47,816 nucleotides of DNA from assembly GCA_014376765.1 (NCBI GenBank), contig JACMQX010000261.1, positions 1 to 47,816 on the forward strand. Reading direction: 5' to 3'. Numbering within the stretch: position 1 is the stretch's first letter; every line of letters begins with the position of its first letter. Shown here one piece after another: positions 6,401-21,983 of the stretch. The notes under the pieces are model-generated. The model was given only the letters and a program-made list of their open reading frames with translations, had not been told where the DNA came from and made no database searches. Source of the DNA: Ramlibacter sp. Lineage in GTDB: Bacteria; Pseudomonadota; Gammaproteobacteria; Burkholderiales; Burkholderiaceae_C. A program made the position numbers and the translations under genes.

Positions 6401-9400
6401 AGGTCGATGTTTCCGATCTGCAAGGTGCCCGCATAAATGTGTTGAAGGTCAGCTTCGAGCAGGCTCAAGCGGCCACCGGTCGCGTTTGCGAGCGTGCCGA
6501 TGAACTCGACAGCCTTGTTCGTCGTCTTGGGCAGGATGGCCACGGTCGAGCCGGCTGCCGTCGCGGTCACGGAGCCAGTTGACGTGATCTGCAAAGCGTC
6601 ACTGATAAACACGATGGCTGGTGCCGTACCCGTATTGCCGCTGCTGACCTGCTTCTCTATAAAAATGTCCGCTGCTGAAATCGTGACAAGTCCTGAAGTC
6701 GAAGCCACGGTACCGGAGTACGGAAGGATGTCCGCCTGAGTACCTGCCGCAATGCTGATGTTCCCGGAATCTGCGAGCACCAAGCCCCCGATGTTGACCG
6801 CGCCGCCCGAAGACGCCAGGCTCAGATTGCCGGTGCCCCTGGCTTGAACAGTCGACCCGACGGTTACGCCGACAGCGCCGGACAGACTTACGCCCACGTT
6901 GCCAGTACCGGTGCCACCGGTGATGCCAGTGAACACGTTCAGCAGCGCGCCCGAATAGACACTGACCGTGCCGGCGCTTGCCGTGTTGACCTGCACTGTG
7001 TTGAGAGAAAGATTTGAGGGGCTGGAGATCCAGACTGAACTGTCGCCCCAAGCCGTCAAGCCGCCGGAATCGGTCAGCTGTACTCCCACGGGTGCGCCGC
7101 CGGTGCCGATGTTGCCTCGCGAACCAGACAGACCCAGCGTCGCATTTTTGCCAGTGAGATTGATAATGCCTGCCATTGCGCTGGTGATGGTGGGCGCCAC
7201 CACTCTCATGTAGCGCGCGCCGATCTGCCCGAGTTCCAGCTTTTGAAATGCGTAGAGCCTGGCCTCGGAATAGCCATCCGACAGGCTGCCAACCAATCGC
7301 GATGGCACATCCATAACCAGATCGCCCGCGTTTGCCGCAAGCGACATATAGGAGCCCGACAGGTAGCTGTTGACCAGGCTTATGCTGCCTTCGGATGTGA
7401 TGTAAAGGTCGCCATCGCTGCCCGCCGCACCCATTGCAGAACTCCTGTCAGTACCTGGCGATCCGGCCACGCCTGGCACGAGGCCAAAGCCGCCGCGCCC
7501 GCCGGTGCCGGCGATGCCACCCACACCACCAGCGCCTGCGGCTGCGGAAATGGTGGCGCCGGACAGGGTCATCACATCGCCAACGTAGTTCGTCTCCAGT
7601 GAGATGTAGCGGCTGTTACCGCCGCTGCCAGCGCTGCCGCCGTTGCCGCCCTTGCCGCCGTTCGTGCCCGCGCTACCGCCGTCCTCGCCCGCGCCACCGG
7701 CGCCACCGGCGCCGCCCGCTCCCCCCGTGCCGCCCAGGCTCAGGAGGCTGCCGTAAATGGAAAGCGTCCCCGGTTTGTTGTAGGTTCCGGCGCCGATATT
7801 GACCTGCCCACCCCTGCCCCCCTTGCCGCCAGCGCCACCGTCGTAGCCCACCTCGCCGTCGCCGCCATCCGCCCCGACTCCACCGGCGCCACCGCTGGAG
7901 CCGGTGCCACCGCTGCCGCCATACGAAGCAACTGTCACATTGAGGCCCACGCGCAAAAGCCCTGAGCTTGCTGTCAACTCGACGGTGCCTCCATCTCCTC
8001 CAATGCCGCCCGATGTGCCTGCGCCCGCCCCGTCCAGACCGTTACCACCCCGGCCACCTTTTGAATAGATGACGGTTGCAGCAGTCCCGCCGCCTACGGA
8101 GATCGTCTTGCCGGCATTGATCGTGACATAGGCACCACCGCCCCCGTTCATCTGATTGCTGGGGTAGGAAAGATCAAGCCCATTGCCGCCCTGAGAAGAG
8201 ATCTGCACGCCGTTGCCAACAGAGACGCTGCCCGTGTCGGCCGACACATAGACGTTGCCGCCATAAGTGTCGCTATAGCTGCTGCGCCCGGTGGAGCTGA
8301 GCGTCACGTTGTCACCAATGGTGAGGTCTCCCTGGCTCACTACGATCGAAAGGGACCGTCCGGAGATGATGCTGTTGTCAAGGCTCTGACTGCCAACCGA
8401 GTCGGTCCGAACGCCGTTGCCGTTGCCGGCGTAGGGACCATCCGTGCTGTTGTCCTGGCCTGCACTGCCGTTCGGGCTGCCGCCGCCTGGTCCACCGAGG
8501 CCGCCAGGGCCACCGGCGCCCCCTGCGCCACCGAACTGACCTGCACCGCCGGCTGAGATGATCGTGGCCCCTGACAAGGTCAGCGCATTCGCACTGCTGG
8601 TCATGGTCATGCGGATCTGGCCGCCATCGCCGCCGTCGCGGGAATAGCCGCCATTTCCGCCCGTGCCGCCGCTGGTGGAGTAGATCGGGCCGGTTCCATT
8701 CAGGCCAGCGCCGCCAGTGCCGCCAGCGCCACCGGCGCCAGCCTGCCCGCCAAGACTCAGGACGCTGCCGTAGACGGAAAGCACAGGCGCGCTGAAGATC
8801 AAGTTGCCTGCAGCGCCACCCGAGCCACCCCAGCCGCCGTTGTAGCCCGTTGCACCGTCAAGGCCCGTTGAATCTGCTCCCGCTGCGCCTGCTGAGCCGG
8901 ACCCGCCCTGGCCACCGTACGATGCCACCGTCACGTTCGCACCAATGCTCAAAGACCCCGTGCCTGTCGACAGGGTGACATTACCCCCGCTGCCGCCGCC
9001 GCCACCGAAGGTGCTGTAGCCGCCCGCAGCGGCAAGCCCGCTGCCGCCACGACCACCGCGCGAATAGATAGCCGTTGCCGTCACCCCGCCGCCGACCATC
9101 AAGGTGGCGGCGGCGCTGATCTTCACGCTTCCGCCCCTGCCGCCCGAACTGGCATAGTTGGCCGGGTTGGATACGTCGGTGGCATCCCCGCCCTGCGAAT
9201 AGATCTGGACGCCGTTGCCGATCGATAGGTTGCCAGTCACGCCGGACAGGCTGGACAAGGAAATACTGCCGCCGTCGCTGGGGTAGATGCCACTGCTACC
9301 CACCGAGCTGATGGTGACGTTGTCAGATACCGACAAGGTGCCCAAGGTGCTTGATAGCTGAATGTTGCCGGGCGTGCCTGGGCCAGAACTCAACAGGTTC

Positions 9401-17604: not shown

Positions 17605-19143
17605 CTAGCCCTGCGCAGCAACCCGGTCAGCTTTACTTTGCAACTTGTTGAGCGCACTGAGATAGGCCTTGGCAGACGCGACGACGATATCCGGGTCCGC
17701 CCCGACCCCGTTCACAACTCTTCCGGAGTTTTGAAGCCGCACGGTCACTTCGCCCTGGCTCTCTGTAGAACCGCTGATCGCGGTGACGGCATACAGCACC
17801 ATTTCGGCGCCGCTGTTCACATGGGACTCGATGGCTTTGAGCGAGGCATCCACTGGCCCGTTACCGTCCGAGTCGCCCCTGACCTCCCTGCCTTCGACCG
17901 TGAACACCACGGACGCATGGGGCCGCTCGCCGGTTTCGCTGTGTTGCGAGAGGGAGACAAACGCGTACTGCTCATTGTCCTTCGCAACGCTTTCATCACT
18001 CACGAGTGCCAGGATGTCTTCATCAAAAATATCGCTCTTGCGGTCGGCCAGTTCCTTGAAGCGCGCAAACGCCGCGTTGACGTCGGCCTCGCTTTCCAGC
18101 GCCACACCCAAGTCCTGCAGGCGCTGCTTGAAGGCGTTGCGCCCGCTGAGCTTGCCCAGCACGATCTTGTTGTTGCTCCAGCCCACGTCTTCGGCGCGCA
18201 TGATTTCGTAGGTGTCACGCGCCTTGAGCACACCGTCCTGGTGGATGCCTGACGCGTGGGCAAAGGCGTTGGCCCCCACCACAGCCTTGTTGGGCTGCAC
18301 CACGAACCCGGTAGTCTGGCTGACCATGCGGCTGGTTGCCAGGATGTGTTTGGTGTCGATATTGAGGTCCAGGCCGAAATAGTCTCTGCGGGTCTTCACC
18401 GCCATCACGATTTCTTCCAGCGAACAGTTGCCTGCCCGCTCGCCCAGGCCGTTGATGGTGCACTCCACCTGCCGCGCGCCGCCGATCTTGACCCCCGCCA
18501 GGGAGTTGGCCACCGCCATGCCCAGGTCATTGTGGCAATGGACTGACCAGATCGCCTTGTCTGAGTTGGGAATGCGCTCGCGCAGCGTCTTGATGAAATT
18601 GCCGTAGAGCTCGGGTACCGCATAGCCCACGGTGTCGGGCACGTTGATGATGGTCGCGCCCTCTTTGATGACCGCCTCGAGCACGCGGCAGAGAAAGTCC
18701 ACATCACTGCGGTAGCCGTCCTCGGGGCTGAACTCGACATCGGCTACCAGGTTGCGGGCGAAGCGCACGGAGAGCTTGGATTGCTCAAACACCTCGTCGG
18801 GCGTCATGCGCAGCTTCTTTTCCATATGGAGCGCGGAGGTCGCAATGAAGGTGTGAATGCGCGGATGAGCCGCGCCCCTGAGCGCTTCAGCAGCGCGGGA
18901 AATGTCGCGGTCGTTCGCCCGCGCCAGCGAGCAGATGCTTGATTCGCGGATGGCGTCGGCAATCGACTTGACCGCCTCAAAGTCGCCATTGGAACTGGCA
19001 GCAAAGCCGGCCTCGATCACATCCACCTTGAGCCGTTCAAGTTGCCGGGCGATGCGCAGCTTCTCATCGCGCGTCATGGACGCGCCGGGGGACTGTTCGC
19101 CATCGCGAAGGGTGGTGTCAAAAATGATGAGTTTGTCGGTCAT
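17605..19143 (-). CDS. leuA: 2-isopropylmalate synthase, short (E. coli-like) type
   Basis: LeuA condenses acetyl-CoA with 2-oxoisovalerate in the first committed step of leucine synthesis. This 512-residue copy has the HMGL-like TIM barrel with [12 protein letters not shown] (9-20), the metal-binding VHCHNDLG near residue 200, the [13 protein letters not shown] segment, ASGIHQDG and a C-terminal LeuA regulatory domain (about 380-500) that normally senses leucine. It starts 12 bp after the stop of a second, longer leuA (19156-20847), so the two form one transcription unit under the attenuator at 20884-20994. Paralogy is clear. Which copy is the main biosynthetic enzyme, or whether one makes citramalate or a longer homologue, cannot be told from sequence alone. 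Confidence 0.93.
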
Positions 19144-19155
19144 GTCACTCTCCTG

Positions 19156-20847
19156 TTATTTGGCGGCTGCGTACACGGCAGACGTCATGTCCACCCTTGA
19201 CCGCTGGATACCCGAAACGATGGCTTTAAGCGAAGCAGAAACGATGTTGGCATCCATGCCCACGCCAAACACCGTCTGCGATTCATCGATGCGAAGCTCC
19301 AGGTAGGCAACCGCCTGCGCATTGGCGCCAGAACCTACTGCATGCTCATGGTAGTCAAGTACCCGCACGTTGTGCCCTGTCGCCTCGTTCAAGCCATTGA
19401 TGAACGCGTCGATGGGGCCGGTGCCCTTGCCCGCGACATGCAGCAAATGGCCGGCCAGTTTCACGTCGGCCAAGAGGCTCACCCGCTTGGAATTCGCCGA
19501 CTCCTCAAGCACCTGGTGTTGTGGCGCTTCAACGGAGGCCAAGGCGTATTCCCGTTCAAACAACTGCCAGATATCGTGGGCGGTCAGTTCCTTGCCTTGC
19601 GCATCCAACACGCGCTGCACCACCTGGCTGAACTCGATCTGCAGGCGGTGCGGCAACTCGATGCCGTATTCGCTCTCCAGCAAATACGAAATACCGCCCT
19701 TGCCCGACTGGCTGTTCACGCGGATCACTGCTTCATAGCTGCGCCCCAGATCCTTGGGGTCAATCGGCAGGTACGGCATGTCCCAGATGTCACCGTCCTT
19801 GCGGGCAGCGAATGCTTTCTTGATCGCGTCCTGATGCGAGCCGGAAAACGAGGTGTAGACCAGATCACCCACATAAGGGTGCCGCGGGTGAACCGGCAAC
19901 TGGTTACAGAACTCCACCGTGCTGCGGATTTCGTCGATGTTCGAAAAATCGAGCCCTGGCGACACGCCCTGCGAGTACAGGTTGAGGGCGATATTGACGA
20001 GGTCCACATTGCCGGTGCGCTCGCCGTTGCCAAAGAGGCAGCCTTCGATGCGGTCAGCACCGGCCATCAAGGCGAACTCACCTGCGGCTGTGCCGGTGCC
20101 GCGGTCATTGTGCGGGTGCACCGACAACACAATGGCGTCGCGGCGGGCCAGGTGCCTGTGCATCCACTCGATCATGTCGGCAAAGATATTGGCCGTTGAA
20201 TGCTCGACGGTTGAAGGCAGGTTGACGATGCACTTGTGCTGCGCTGTGGGTTGCCAGACGGCCGTCACCGCATCCACCACGCGCTTTGAAAATTCCAGCT
20301 CGGTGCCGGAAAACATTTCGGGTGAATACTCAAAGGTCCAGTGCGTTGCCGGCTGCAGGGCGGCCAGGTCCTTGATGAGTTGCGCGTTGCTCGTCGCAAG
20401 CTCGACGATCTCATCGTCATTCATACCCAGAACCACGCGGCGCATCACCGGCGCCGTCGCGTTGTAGAGGTGGACCACGGCTCGTTTGGCGCCCTCCAGT
20501 GACTCGAAAGTCCGGCGGATCAAGGGCTCACGAGCCTGCGTGAGGACCTGGATCGTGACGTCGTCCGGCACCAGGTTTTCATCAATCAATTGACGTACGA
20601 AGTCGAATTCTGTTTGCGAGGCTGAGGGAAAGCCGATCTCGATTTCCTTGAATCCGATTTTCACCAGCGCGTTGAACATCTTCAGCTTGCGCGCCGCGTC
20701 CATGGGCTCGATCAGGGCCTGGTTGCCGTCCCGCAGGTCCACGCTGGCCCAGATTGGGGCGCTCCGCAGCACCGCATCAGGCCAGGTGCGGTCGGTCAAT
20801 CGGACCGGCTCGAACGCGCGGTACTTGCTTGCGGGATGCTTCAACAT
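19156..20847 (-). CDS. leuA: 2-isopropylmalate synthase, long type
   Basis: This is a LeuA of the longer actinobacterial/Burkholderia type (563 residues). It has DLRDGNQAL (37-45), [38 protein letters not shown] and a C-terminal regulatory domain (about 430-555). I choose the ATG at 20847 ([10 protein letters not shown]) because AAGGAAG sits 7-8 bp upstream; an in-frame start at 20880 would lie between the attenuator and this ribosome site. It is the first gene after the Leu leader peptide and attenuator, so its expression should rise when charged tRNA-Leu is scarce. The downstream short leuA is separated by only 12 bp. Confidence 0.94.
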
Positions 20848-20873
20848 GGTCACACTTCCTTGAAAATTAAAAA

Positions 20874-20906
20874 CCAGCAACCCAAAACAAAACGGCCCGT
20901 TGCTGG
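20874..20906 (-). promoter_or_regulatory. Second, alternative hairpin in the leuA leader
   Basis: On the minus strand CCAGCAAC (20899-20906) can pair with GTTGCTGG (20874-20881), a perfect 8-bp stem followed by TTTTTAATTTT. It uses the loop and part of the 3' arm of the attenuator at 20884-20921, so the two structures exclude each other. It might be a backup terminator or a competitor that tunes the attenuator. This is inference from base pairing only. Confidence 0.4.
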
Positions 20907-20921
20907 TGCATACGGGCCGTT
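20884..20921 (-). terminator. Transcription attenuator of the leuA-leuA operon
   Basis: A perfect 10-bp stem AACGGCCCGT / ACGGGCCGTT (plus-strand arms 20891-20900 and 20912-20921) with an 11-nt loop is followed on the minus strand by TTGTTTT (20884-20890), a typical intrinsic terminator. It lies between the leader ORF stop (20941) and the leuA start (20847), so it must be bypassed for leuA to be transcribed. Confidence 0.85.
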
Positions 20922-20958
20922 GAAAGGGTTCGCGCGTGCGCTACCGTCTCCGCCCGTA
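20911..20958 (-). promoter_or_regulatory. Antiterminator pairing in the leuA leader
   Basis: TACGGGC inside the leader ORF (codons Tyr13-Gly14-Arg15; plus-strand 20952-20958) is exactly complementary to GCCCGTA in the 5' arm and loop edge of the attenuator (20911-20917). A ribosome stalled on the upstream Leu codons would leave TACGGGC free to capture the attenuator arm and allow read-through. A ribosome reaching the stop would cover TACGGGC and let the terminator form. This matches the classical attenuation logic of his, leu and trp leaders. Confidence 0.75.
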
Positions 20959-20994
20959 GGGGATTAGCAGTAGTGCCAGCGAAATTTGATTCAT
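20941..20994 (-). CDS. Leucine-rich leader peptide of the leuA operon
   Basis: This 17-codon ORF encodes MNQISLALLLIPYGRRR. Leu is at positions 6, 8, 9 and 10 with codons CTG, CTA, CTG, CTA, flanked by Ile4 and Ile11. CTA is rare in the GC-rich genes around it, which suits a sensor of charged tRNA-Leu. The rare AGA codon occurs near the end. It sits about 95 bp upstream of leuA and directly before the antiterminator/attenuator elements. No Shine-Dalgarno is visible upstream of the ATG, and a possible extended -10 (21002-21007) places transcription start at or next to the AUG, so translation may be leaderless. Confidence 0.8.
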   Translation of the reverse strand: MNQISLALLLIPYGRRR

Positions 20995-21001
20995 ATGAGG
21001 G

Positions 21002-21030
21002 AGCTTAGCACAGGCTGCGATGTACGAAAA
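21002..21030 (-). promoter_or_regulatory. Candidate promoter of the leuA leader transcript
   Basis: On the minus strand an extended -10 (TGC-TAAGCT, hexamer at 21002-21007) lies 17 bp downstream of a weak -35 (TTTTCG, 21025-21030). Its expected start site is within a base or so of the leader ATG at 20994. The match to consensus is modest, but the placement in the pssA-leader gap is suitable. Confidence 0.4.
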
Positions 21031-21062
21031 CCCGGTTTGCCCTGAAGGCCCGGGCGCGCGCT

Positions 21063-21896
21063 TCACCTGTGCATGCCACGCTCTTCCGGCTCCTCGGTCG
21101 ATGTGCTGATGACGCTGGTGCGCTGGCCTTTGGCCTTGCGCCAGCCATAAACCGCATAACCGCTCAGGCCATAAATCACAAACATGCCGAACAGAACCGT
21201 TGGCGGATGGATGTTGATCACGGCAATGCCCAGGGCAATCAGGACGATGGCGGCAAATGGCACGCTCTTTTTCATGCTCACATCCTTGAAGCTGTAGAAC
21301 GGCACATTGGTCACCATGGTGAGGCCCGCATAAAGCGCCAGGCCAAACATGATCCAGGGGATGCTCACACCCAGCAGGTAGTCCGTGCCGCGGATGCCGC
21401 TGTCCGTGACGATCCAGATCAGTCCGGTCACCAGCGCAGCGGCAGCGGGCGATGGCAGGCCCTGGAAAAAGCGTTTGTCCACCACGCCGGTGTTGACGTT
21501 GAACCGGGCCAACCGCAGCATCGCGCACGCGCAATAAACAAAAGCGGCAATCCAGCCCCAGCGGCCCAGACCCTTCAGTGCCCACTCGTACGCGATGAGC
21601 GCTGGTGCAGCGCCGAACGACACCATGTCGGACAGTGAATCCATCTGCTCGCCAAACGCACTTTGGGTGTTGGTCATCCGCGCCACGCGACCGTCCAGGC
21701 TATCGAGCACCATCGCGCAGAAAACACCGACTGCAGCTTGGTCAAAGCGCCCGTTCATGGCCATCACCACCGCATAAAAGCCACCGAAAAGAGCAGCCAG
21801 CGTGAACAGGTTGGGCAGGATGTAGATGCCCTTGCGGCGCTTGCGGATCACGACCTCCTGGCCGTCATCAGAGCTCAAATCGTTGCCGTCATGCAT
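21063..21896 (-). CDS. pssA: CDP-diacylglycerol--serine O-phosphatidyltransferase
   Basis: PssA makes phosphatidylserine, the precursor of phosphatidylethanolamine, in the inner membrane. The complete CDP-alcohol phosphotransferase motif is present: Asp65, Asp68, Gly69, Ala72, Arg73, Gly82, Asp86 and Asp90 with correct spacing, followed by several hydrophobic segments (about 25-260). This is the integral-membrane type, not the peripheral E. coli type. The frame extends up to 21983, but that ATG lies right after the T-tract of the ilvC terminator, so I take MHDGNDLSS at 21896 (277 residues). Either start lacks a good ribosome site. It sits between ilvC and the leu leader, and pssA next to ilv/leu genes is common in betaproteobacteria. 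Confidence 0.92.
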   Translation of the reverse strand: MHDGNDLSSDDGQEVVIRKRRKGIYILPNLFTLAALFGGFYAVVMAMNGRFDQAAVGVFCAMVLDSLDGRVARMTNTQSAFGEQMDSLSDMVSFGAAPALIAYEWALKGLGRWGWIAAFVYCACAMLRLARFNVNTGVVDKRFFQGLPSPAAAALVTGLIWIVTDSGIRGTDYLLGVSIPWIMFGLALYAGLTMVTNVPFYSFKDVSMKKSVPFAAIVLIALGIAVINIHPPTVLFGMFVIYGLSGYAVYGWRKAKGQRTSVISTSTEEPEERGMHR

Positions 21897-21983
21897 GGGG
21901 AAGAAGCCTGTTGTGAGTAAAGGGTGAATGCCATGGGGCCCAAGCGGGCAGTGTAAGGCAGCAGCTTGTTGGCGAGGCTTCAT

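Follow-up and report, generated by a model that had tools for sequence, protein, structure and literature searches.

A probable leucine attenuator upstream of leuA in Ramlibacter and its relatives, with a predicted loop-tail helix in the read-through RNA

The DNA analysed here is a stretch of 47,816 nucleotides from Ramlibacter sp. (hereafter, the window). On its minus strand, pssA (21983-21063) is separated from the first of two leuA genes (20847-19156) by a gap containing a leader element that is best read as a ribosome-mediated leucine attenuator of the leuA unit. The element is predicted to have its own extended -10 promoter, to encode a leader peptide that is translated from a leaderless start, and to form an additional helix, P3, in the read-through RNA. 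From the comparison of related sequences and from simulated ribosome positions, we put the probability of this reading at about 0.85. The attenuation proposed in an earlier, sequence-only reading of the region is well supported. The element is also more than a chance arrangement, as the open reading frame (ORF), the terminator core and most of the antiterminator recur before leuA in relatives. The sensing of leucine by ribosome stalling is a textbook principle; new here is the combination of a leader ORF with a predicted leaderless start, a very strong contrast in the use of CTA codons and a putative loop-tail pseudoknot, in a family without an Rfam match.

Leader peptide, terminator and antiterminator

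The leader region lies downstream of ilvC, ilvN and ilvB, with pssA, which encodes CDP-diacylglycerol-serine O-phosphatidyltransferase (21063..21983, minus strand), as its immediate upstream neighbour. The two tandem leuA genes that follow on the same strand (20847-17605) both encode 2-isopropylmalate synthase, and they are of two different types: the first copy (19156..20847) belongs to the PRK03739 or leuA_yeast type and the second (17605..19143) to the PRK00915 or leuA_bact type. In some genomes of the family (L119, L122, L123, L126 and L127) the leader is found directly before the second leuA type instead. The sole Rfam match in the window is an ilvH RNA (RF02993; 23667-23600, minus strand) directly upstream of ilvN, which is present too in L036, L054 and L076.

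Relatives were collected by a scan with the first leuA protein, from which the best 80 of 576 named loci were kept. Two of these end at the gene start, and the alignment consists of the other 78 together with the window, giving 79 rows. All 78 relatives with enough DNA carry the leader, as does the window. The records bearing it include ones named as Rhodoferax, Polaromonas, Ramlibacter, Variovorax, Comamonas and Delftia, and further as Hydrogenophaga, Limnohabitans, Roseateles, Piscinibacter, Rubrivivax and Lautropia. The gene directly upstream is pssA in 75 of the 78 named relatives; the exceptions are L082, for which there is too little DNA, and the Lautropia loci L108 and L113, which keep the leader without pssA upstream.

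The leader ORF of the window, MNQISLALLLIPYGRRR followed by a stop codon (20941..20994, minus strand), comprises 17 codons and has no Shine-Dalgarno sequence; an ORF of this kind is present in 79/79 rows. Its Leu codons at positions 6, 8, 9 and 10 are CTG, CTA, CTG and CTA, and direct reading thus bears out the earlier description of a 17-codon ORF with four Leu codons in five positions, two of them CTA. Across the alignment the ORF is 17 codons long in 50 rows, 18 in 17, 19 in 10, and 20 and 21 in one row each. Every row has at least three Leu codons (mean 4.35 per leader) and at least one CTA. In total, CTA accounts for 191 of 344 leader Leu codons (55%). The leuA genes that follow the leaders have 3 CTA among 3634 Leu codons (0.08%), and the window's ilvB, ilvN, ilvC, pssA and two leuA genes have none among 202; the comparison set consists of the downstream leuA genes and these six window genes. 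This contrast provides a sharp comparative case of control-codon choice. Replacing the three CUA codons of the Salmonella leu leader by CUG is reported to have made it less sensitive, and it has been argued that in Escherichia coli no leu control codon is better suited than CUA (PMC1183508). A putative protector hairpin could form between GCACTAC over the Leu codons (20970..20976, minus strand) and GTAGCGC, which includes the stop codon (20938..20944, minus strand); its CUAC/GUAG core is frequent among the rows, but it is fixed by the CTA and TAG codons and is therefore weak evidence.

Downstream of the ORF, the terminator consists of a 5′ arm AACGGCCCGT (20912..20921, minus strand), a 3′ arm ACGGGCCGTT (20891..20900) and a T-rich tail, TTGTTTT (20884..20890), so that the perfect 10-bp attenuator stem with its T-rich tail described earlier is readily seen in the letters. 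The cores GGCCCG and CGGGCC are invariant in 79/79 rows, the loop between them measures 12-14 nt in 79/79, and at least five T occur among nine bases of the tail in 79/79. A simple terminator scan of the window did not list the hairpin, probably because it allowed loops of 3-8 nt and the outer loop here is 11 nt.

The antiterminator pairs TACGGGC, located within codons 13-15 of the leader ORF (20952..20958, minus strand), with GCCCGTA, the loop-proximal part of the terminator 5′ arm (20911..20917); this exact 7-bp pairing had also been recorded in the sequence-only reading. It is mostly kept across the 79 rows, with a few compensatory changes. The covariation is thin: double changes occur in 2/7 pairs, the inner pairs are nearly invariant, the outermost pair is unpaired in 54/79 rows, and a strand-swap test gave 12/2000. 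The leader stretch as a whole has a folding z-score of -2.78, with 2 of 200 shuffles equally good. The earlier reading had called for a covariation analysis of the pssA-leuA gap, and had named a lack of conservation of the peptide and stems among relatives as what would speak against it. The analysis finds P3 strong and the antiterminator with a few compensatory changes, and both peptide and stems are conserved (ORF 79/79, terminator core 79/79).

The classical logic of sensing Leu-tRNA is supported by simulated ribosome positions, which resemble those of the E. coli trp attenuator. The simulation, in which the ribosome footprint extended to 13 nt from the A-site codon, covered 78 of the 79 rows (L110, with no CGGG in its ORF, was set aside). 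Before the terminator 3′ arm emerges, the antiterminator has a mean probability of 0.98 if the first CTA occupies the A site, 0.77 for a ribosome at the first Leu codon, 0.49 for one at the last CTA and 0.00 for one at the stop codon; without a ribosome the mean is 0.27, and the probability exceeds 0.5 in 26% of rows. The edge of a ribosome at the first CTA falls short of the antiterminator strand by a median of 4 nt. At the stop codon the ribosome covers this strand in 78/78 rows, and at the last CTA it leaves the strand free in only 39/78, the window not being among them. When E. coli trp was treated alike as a control, the corresponding values were 0.99 stalled, 0.00 at the stop codon and 0.09 free. 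The window's own untranslated leader departs from both the mean of 0.27 and E. coli trp, forming the antiterminator at 0.72-0.75.

After the 3′ arm has emerged, the terminator prevails at equilibrium whatever the ribosome state (probability about 1.0), as it likewise does in E. coli trp (0.94-0.97). The persistence of the antiterminator must therefore be kinetic. The antiterminator would hold the loop-proximal half of the 5′ arm, and the base-proximal bases that it leaves have partners that are transcribed last.

A helix between the terminator loop and the downstream tail

P3 is the part of the element that is best supported by covariation. Its 5′ strand, ACCAGCAAC, comprises the terminator loop and the first two bases of the 3′ arm (20899..20907, minus strand), and its 3′ strand, GTTGCTGGT, is a tail downstream of the U-tract (20873..20881). 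On alignment A1 this helix is 90.6% paired, with double changes in 6/9 pairs and 50 double-change cells as against 13.3 in shuffles (0/500); in slid controls the pairing drops to 12-59%. When only the bases between the invariant stem cores are considered, the loop and tail pair at -7 kcal/mol or better in 76/79 rows, that is, in 75 of the 78 relatives and the window. The energy of loops with their own tails is -14.07 versus -11.68 with swapped tails (0/5000), or -17.75 versus -14.34 when three more stem bases are included (0/2000), and the own tail beats the mean of tails from rows with other loops in 71/79 rows. Placed on the tree of the leuA proteins, P3 pairs change type at least 28 times, by one- or two-sided changes.

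The sequence-only reading had recognised this helix as an 8-bp stem between 20874-20881 and 20899-20906 and had cast it as a competitor of the attenuator. The stem exists, with a length of 9 bp rather than 8, but competition is not what the comparison suggests, since the helix ends where the attenuator stem begins and the compensating change lies on the tail side. The telling position is column 174, the base shared by both helices. It is G instead of A in 29 rows, and the matching change of U to C is seen in the tail in 21 of them and in the terminator in one. Within these 29 rows, G174 thus faces C in P3 in 21, whereas its terminator partner is C in one and a wobble U in 26. Pair 176/207 is G-G in 60/79 rows, and P3 stops at columns 174/175. 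Moreover, P3 abuts the terminator core without a gap in 66 of the 76 rows that have it. The arrangement resembles an H-type pseudoknot in which P3 stacks on the terminator and probably coexists with its stem. We therefore consider it unlikely that P3 is a competitor of the terminator stem, given where the helix stops and where compensation occurs. Some overlap is left, as in 64/79 rows the first invariant base of the stem could join P3 in a ninth pair. A role for P3 as a second terminator was also considered and rejected: a T-run, TTTTTAATTTT, follows P3 in the window, but none is seen by eye in most rows.

The tail lies beyond the U-tract and is transcribed after it; any action of P3 is therefore confined to read-through RNA, and P3 should not decide termination. 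This raises the question of why an intrinsic terminator would keep a partner that exists only after its failure. P3 more likely has effects in cis, with the stability of the leuA mRNA, the access of Rho to it or its translation as the first choice, than in trans, where pairing is the minority view. It is not essential to the device, since it is missing or weak in some leaders: three rows lack it (L039, L045 and L047, metagenome-assembled genomes of Comamonadaceae) and retain ORF, terminator and antiterminator, and L031 lacks it as well.

These properties invite two other readings of the element. One of them, rather unlikely in our view, places control mainly in the action of the P3 pseudoknot on leuA translation or mRNA decay and makes termination secondary. 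P3 is the best covarying helix and forms only in read-through RNA, a leuA leader with a pseudoknot has been published for Actinobacteria (PMC1262725), and in 14/76 rows the best duplex of loop and tail extends to 9-19 nt from the leuA start. In 62/76 rows, however, P3 ends at least 20 nt before that start (at 20-33 nt in 50 of them), and it is the terminator core that is kept without exception, in 79/79 rows versus 76/79 for P3.

The other reading, which we regard as improbable, makes the terminated leader RNA a trans-acting, autoregulatory small RNA whose loop pairs with the tail on other leuA mRNAs or with different messages. Such pairing would give the same covariation, and a precedent is reported in rnTrpL of Sinorhizobium meliloti (PMC7298713); in addition, the complement of the loop occurs nine times in the window's own genome, one of the nine being the loop itself, versus twice for the reversed pattern. 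Nevertheless, the tail starts 13-26 nt after the terminator core (76 rows), which is close enough for a pseudoknot in cis and explains the covariation without a second molecule.

A promoter-like box and a probable leaderless start

Two features additional to the sequence-only reading, a promoter-like box and the missing Shine-Dalgarno sequence, bear on how the attenuator would be transcribed and translated. An extended -10-like box, TGCTAAGCT (21002..21010, minus strand), lies 7 nt before the leader ATG in the window, and takes the form TGnTAnAnT in relatives. In 76/79 rows TGNTANANT is found 6-10 nt before the leader ATG; as the picking of leader ORFs required a TANNNT box and so selects for the box, control positions were counted separately, with no occurrence at 8292 other upstream positions. 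The spacer between box and ATG is 6 nt in 10 rows, 7 in 32, 8 in 13, 9 in one and 10 in 23. For this type of box, to which the count was confined, there is no occurrence inside the leader or between hairpin and leuA in any of the 79 rows, and no conserved -35 motif is found in the 79 rows. The sequence-only reading had also named a transcription start downstream of the hairpin as a refuting condition, and the absence of such a box there speaks against it. The window's own box is one of the three rows that depart from TGNTANANT: its hexamer TAAGCT (21002-21007) is off the consensus TAnAnT, possibly reflecting a weak promoter or an assembly error in this genome of 336 contigs.

Extended -10 boxes set the transcription start about 6-9 nt downstream, and this spacing predicts a start at the leader ATG or a few bases before it. 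Before the leader ATG, the mean anti-Shine-Dalgarno energy is -0.65 versus -2.89 for random coding 19-mers, and a value of -5 or below is found in one of 79 leaders versus 19% of those 19-mers; the mean at leuA starts is -3.84. Taken together, a box 6-10 nt before the ATG and the lack of a Shine-Dalgarno sequence make it probable that the leader is translated leaderless, and we regard this prediction as a strong one. With ATG and box too close for a Shine-Dalgarno sequence to fit, the leader would allow leaderless translation to be tested cleanly within a regulatory circuit.

The attenuator reading may then be drawn up as follows. Transcription would begin from the extended -10 promoter at the end of pssA, and the RNA would start with the leader ATG or a few bases away from it; ribosomes would thus load on a leaderless 5′ end. 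If Leu-tRNA is sufficient, the ribosome would pass the CTA and CTG codons, reach the stop codon and cover ACGGGC; the terminator hairpin would form and RNA polymerase would stop. If Leu-tRNA is short, the ribosome would halt at the early Leu codons, chiefly at the first CTA, just upstream of ACGGGC. This strand, left free, would then engage the loop-proximal half of the 5′ arm of the terminator, and transcription would continue into leuA. As soon as the tail has been made, the loop of the terminator would pair with it to form P3 as an H-type pseudoknot in the read-through RNA, which more likely shapes the stability, Rho access or translation of leuA mRNA.

It is very improbable that the hairpin merely ends an ilvBNC-pssA unit and is followed by an unregulated leuA promoter, with the short ORF incidental: a terminator would be sensible behind a gene that stands directly upstream in 75/78 relatives, but the ORF is present in 79/79 rows with its CTA bias of 55% versus 0.08%, the box precedes both ORF and hairpin in 76/79 and in no row lies between hairpin and leuA, and Lautropia L108 and L113 retain the leader where pssA is not upstream.

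Finally, a more far-reaching proposal, which we consider doubtful, treats the terminator loop as a conserved docking site for a tail that exists only upon read-through, either as a cis pseudoknot that controls the fate of the leuA mRNA or in trans silencing by the terminated RNA, and adds to this a promoter-specific switch. If the docking site were real, the released and the read-through RNA would differ by the loop-tail interaction. If leaderless initiation acted as a promoter-specific switch, RNA arriving from ilvBNC-pssA would be free of ribosomes on the leader and would be terminated. A leaderless start, as in the attenuator reading above, should by itself lead to this outcome, since ribosomes would be absent from the leader on RNA that comes in from pssA. 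The simulated termination of ribosome-free RNA agrees with this for most rows, and not clearly for the window; as the window's free leader forms the antiterminator at the high values given above, the promoter-specific part of the proposal is weakened.

Distribution and comparison with known systems

A covariance model of the element, R1, was built from 48 sequences. In a sample of the family, R1 matches (E 1e-5) occur in 328 of the 399 genomes, representing 120 of the 141 genera. In a sample of the order, 15 of 399 genomes had matches at E < 1e-15, comprising 11 of the 12 own-family genomes listed and four genomes from one genus of another family; all 15 adjoin a leuA, ten of the first type and five of the second. 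The class sample yielded matches in 3 of 369 genomes, all from the own family. The window's own genome has a single copy, its next best match having an E value of 0.08, and no plasmid copies of the element were found. Weak R1 matches outside the family (15 loci, E 4e-6 to 5e-4) were put down to chance, with no leuA, pssA, ilvB, ilvN or ilvC nearby.

Of the 71 unmatched family genomes, five were inspected (L184-L188), and all five show by eye a promoter-like box 7-8 nt before a Leu-rich ORF that precedes leuA. Their terminator region differs from that of the R1 element; their loop-tail energies range from -5.6 to -11.1, and L188 alone has a clear contiguous helix. Among the leaders before the second leuA type (n=7, five of them found via the R1 model), box and ORF are present in 7/7 and P3 in 6/7.

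Other leucine leaders may exist in the order. A further sample of 80 genomes, 71 of them with a match, gave 30 loci around the second leuA type, or 29 without the window's own. In 19 of these 29, a count made without a proper look at L203 and L213, a TANNNT box stands 6-10 nt ahead of the ATG of a short ORF that contains Leu codons; in L220 a similar peptide is seen by eye, with its ATG about 30 nt after the box. Fifteen of the 19 ORFs, from other Burkholderiales families (L197, L200, L201, L205-L211 and L215-L219), lie about 260 nt upstream of leuA and end in LLLRPAR, LLLRVRAH or similar before the stop codon. They use mostly CTG codons and have no terminator by eye. As the search rule demands a box, these ORFs are a lead rather than a count of leaderless leaders; they may represent a second class of leucine leaders that works by a different mechanism. 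A different arrangement is seen upstream of leuA in L196 (G111) and L199 (G066), where leader ORFs with CTA codons, MLMNFSPLTGLLLLALSLKLGAGKA before the stop codon and similar, accompany a clear terminator, CCCCAGC..GCTGGGG with a T-run, in a sequence unlike the R1 element.

Rfam 15 gives no match up to E 10 for positions 20800-21100 of the window, leucine operon leaders included, and at gathering scores only ilvH RNA for 15 related loci, eight of them of the LLLR-tail kind. The element thus adds a defined RNA without an Rfam 15 match that is found in 328 of the 399 family genomes sampled. Among open-licence papers, no title or abstract on this leader in Burkholderiales was found. Vitreschak and colleagues reportedly dealt with proteobacterial attenuators in 2004, and an earlier mention of the leader there is possible. 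The accessible portion of PMC2965389 contains neither 'leuA' nor 'leucine'.

A close counterpart is the attenuation of the enterobacterial leu operon, as described in PMC1183508. The leader peptide leuL of E. coli has 28 codons with four CTA; the leaders described here are shorter, at 17-21 codons, and CTA-rich too. Unlike leuL, they have no Shine-Dalgarno sequence, are preceded by a box 6-10 nt before the ATG, and are followed by a terminator whose loop has a predicted pairing partner in the tail further downstream. The trp attenuator of E. coli is alike in its simulated ribosome behaviour and in that the antiterminator strand copies the terminator 3′ arm (CGGGC). It responds to another amino acid, however, and its antiterminator strand comes after the stop codon, whereas here the strand is inside the ORF.

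With respect to the pseudoknot, there is a likeness to the LEU element of Actinobacteria, which is described as comprising an upstream ORF with Leu codons before leuA, a conserved pseudoknot, and a base stem that pairs the Leu codons with the leuA Shine-Dalgarno sequence (PMC1262725). Both systems share a pseudoknot upstream of leuA and a Leu-codon ORF, the loop-tail helix being present here in 76/79 rows, but the layout differs, as the present pseudoknot is built on an intrinsic terminator. The two are compared by description, and the element is not filed as a member of LEU. The leaderless start has its parallel in trpL of S. meliloti, where the 5′ end of the attenuator RNA rnTrpL is reported to coincide with the leader ATG, the peptide is leaderless and the attenuator RNA is reported to act in trans (PMC7298713). 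That system belongs to tryptophan and to the Alphaproteobacteria, and its 5′ end is reported, whereas the 5′ end of the leucine leader described here is a predicted one.
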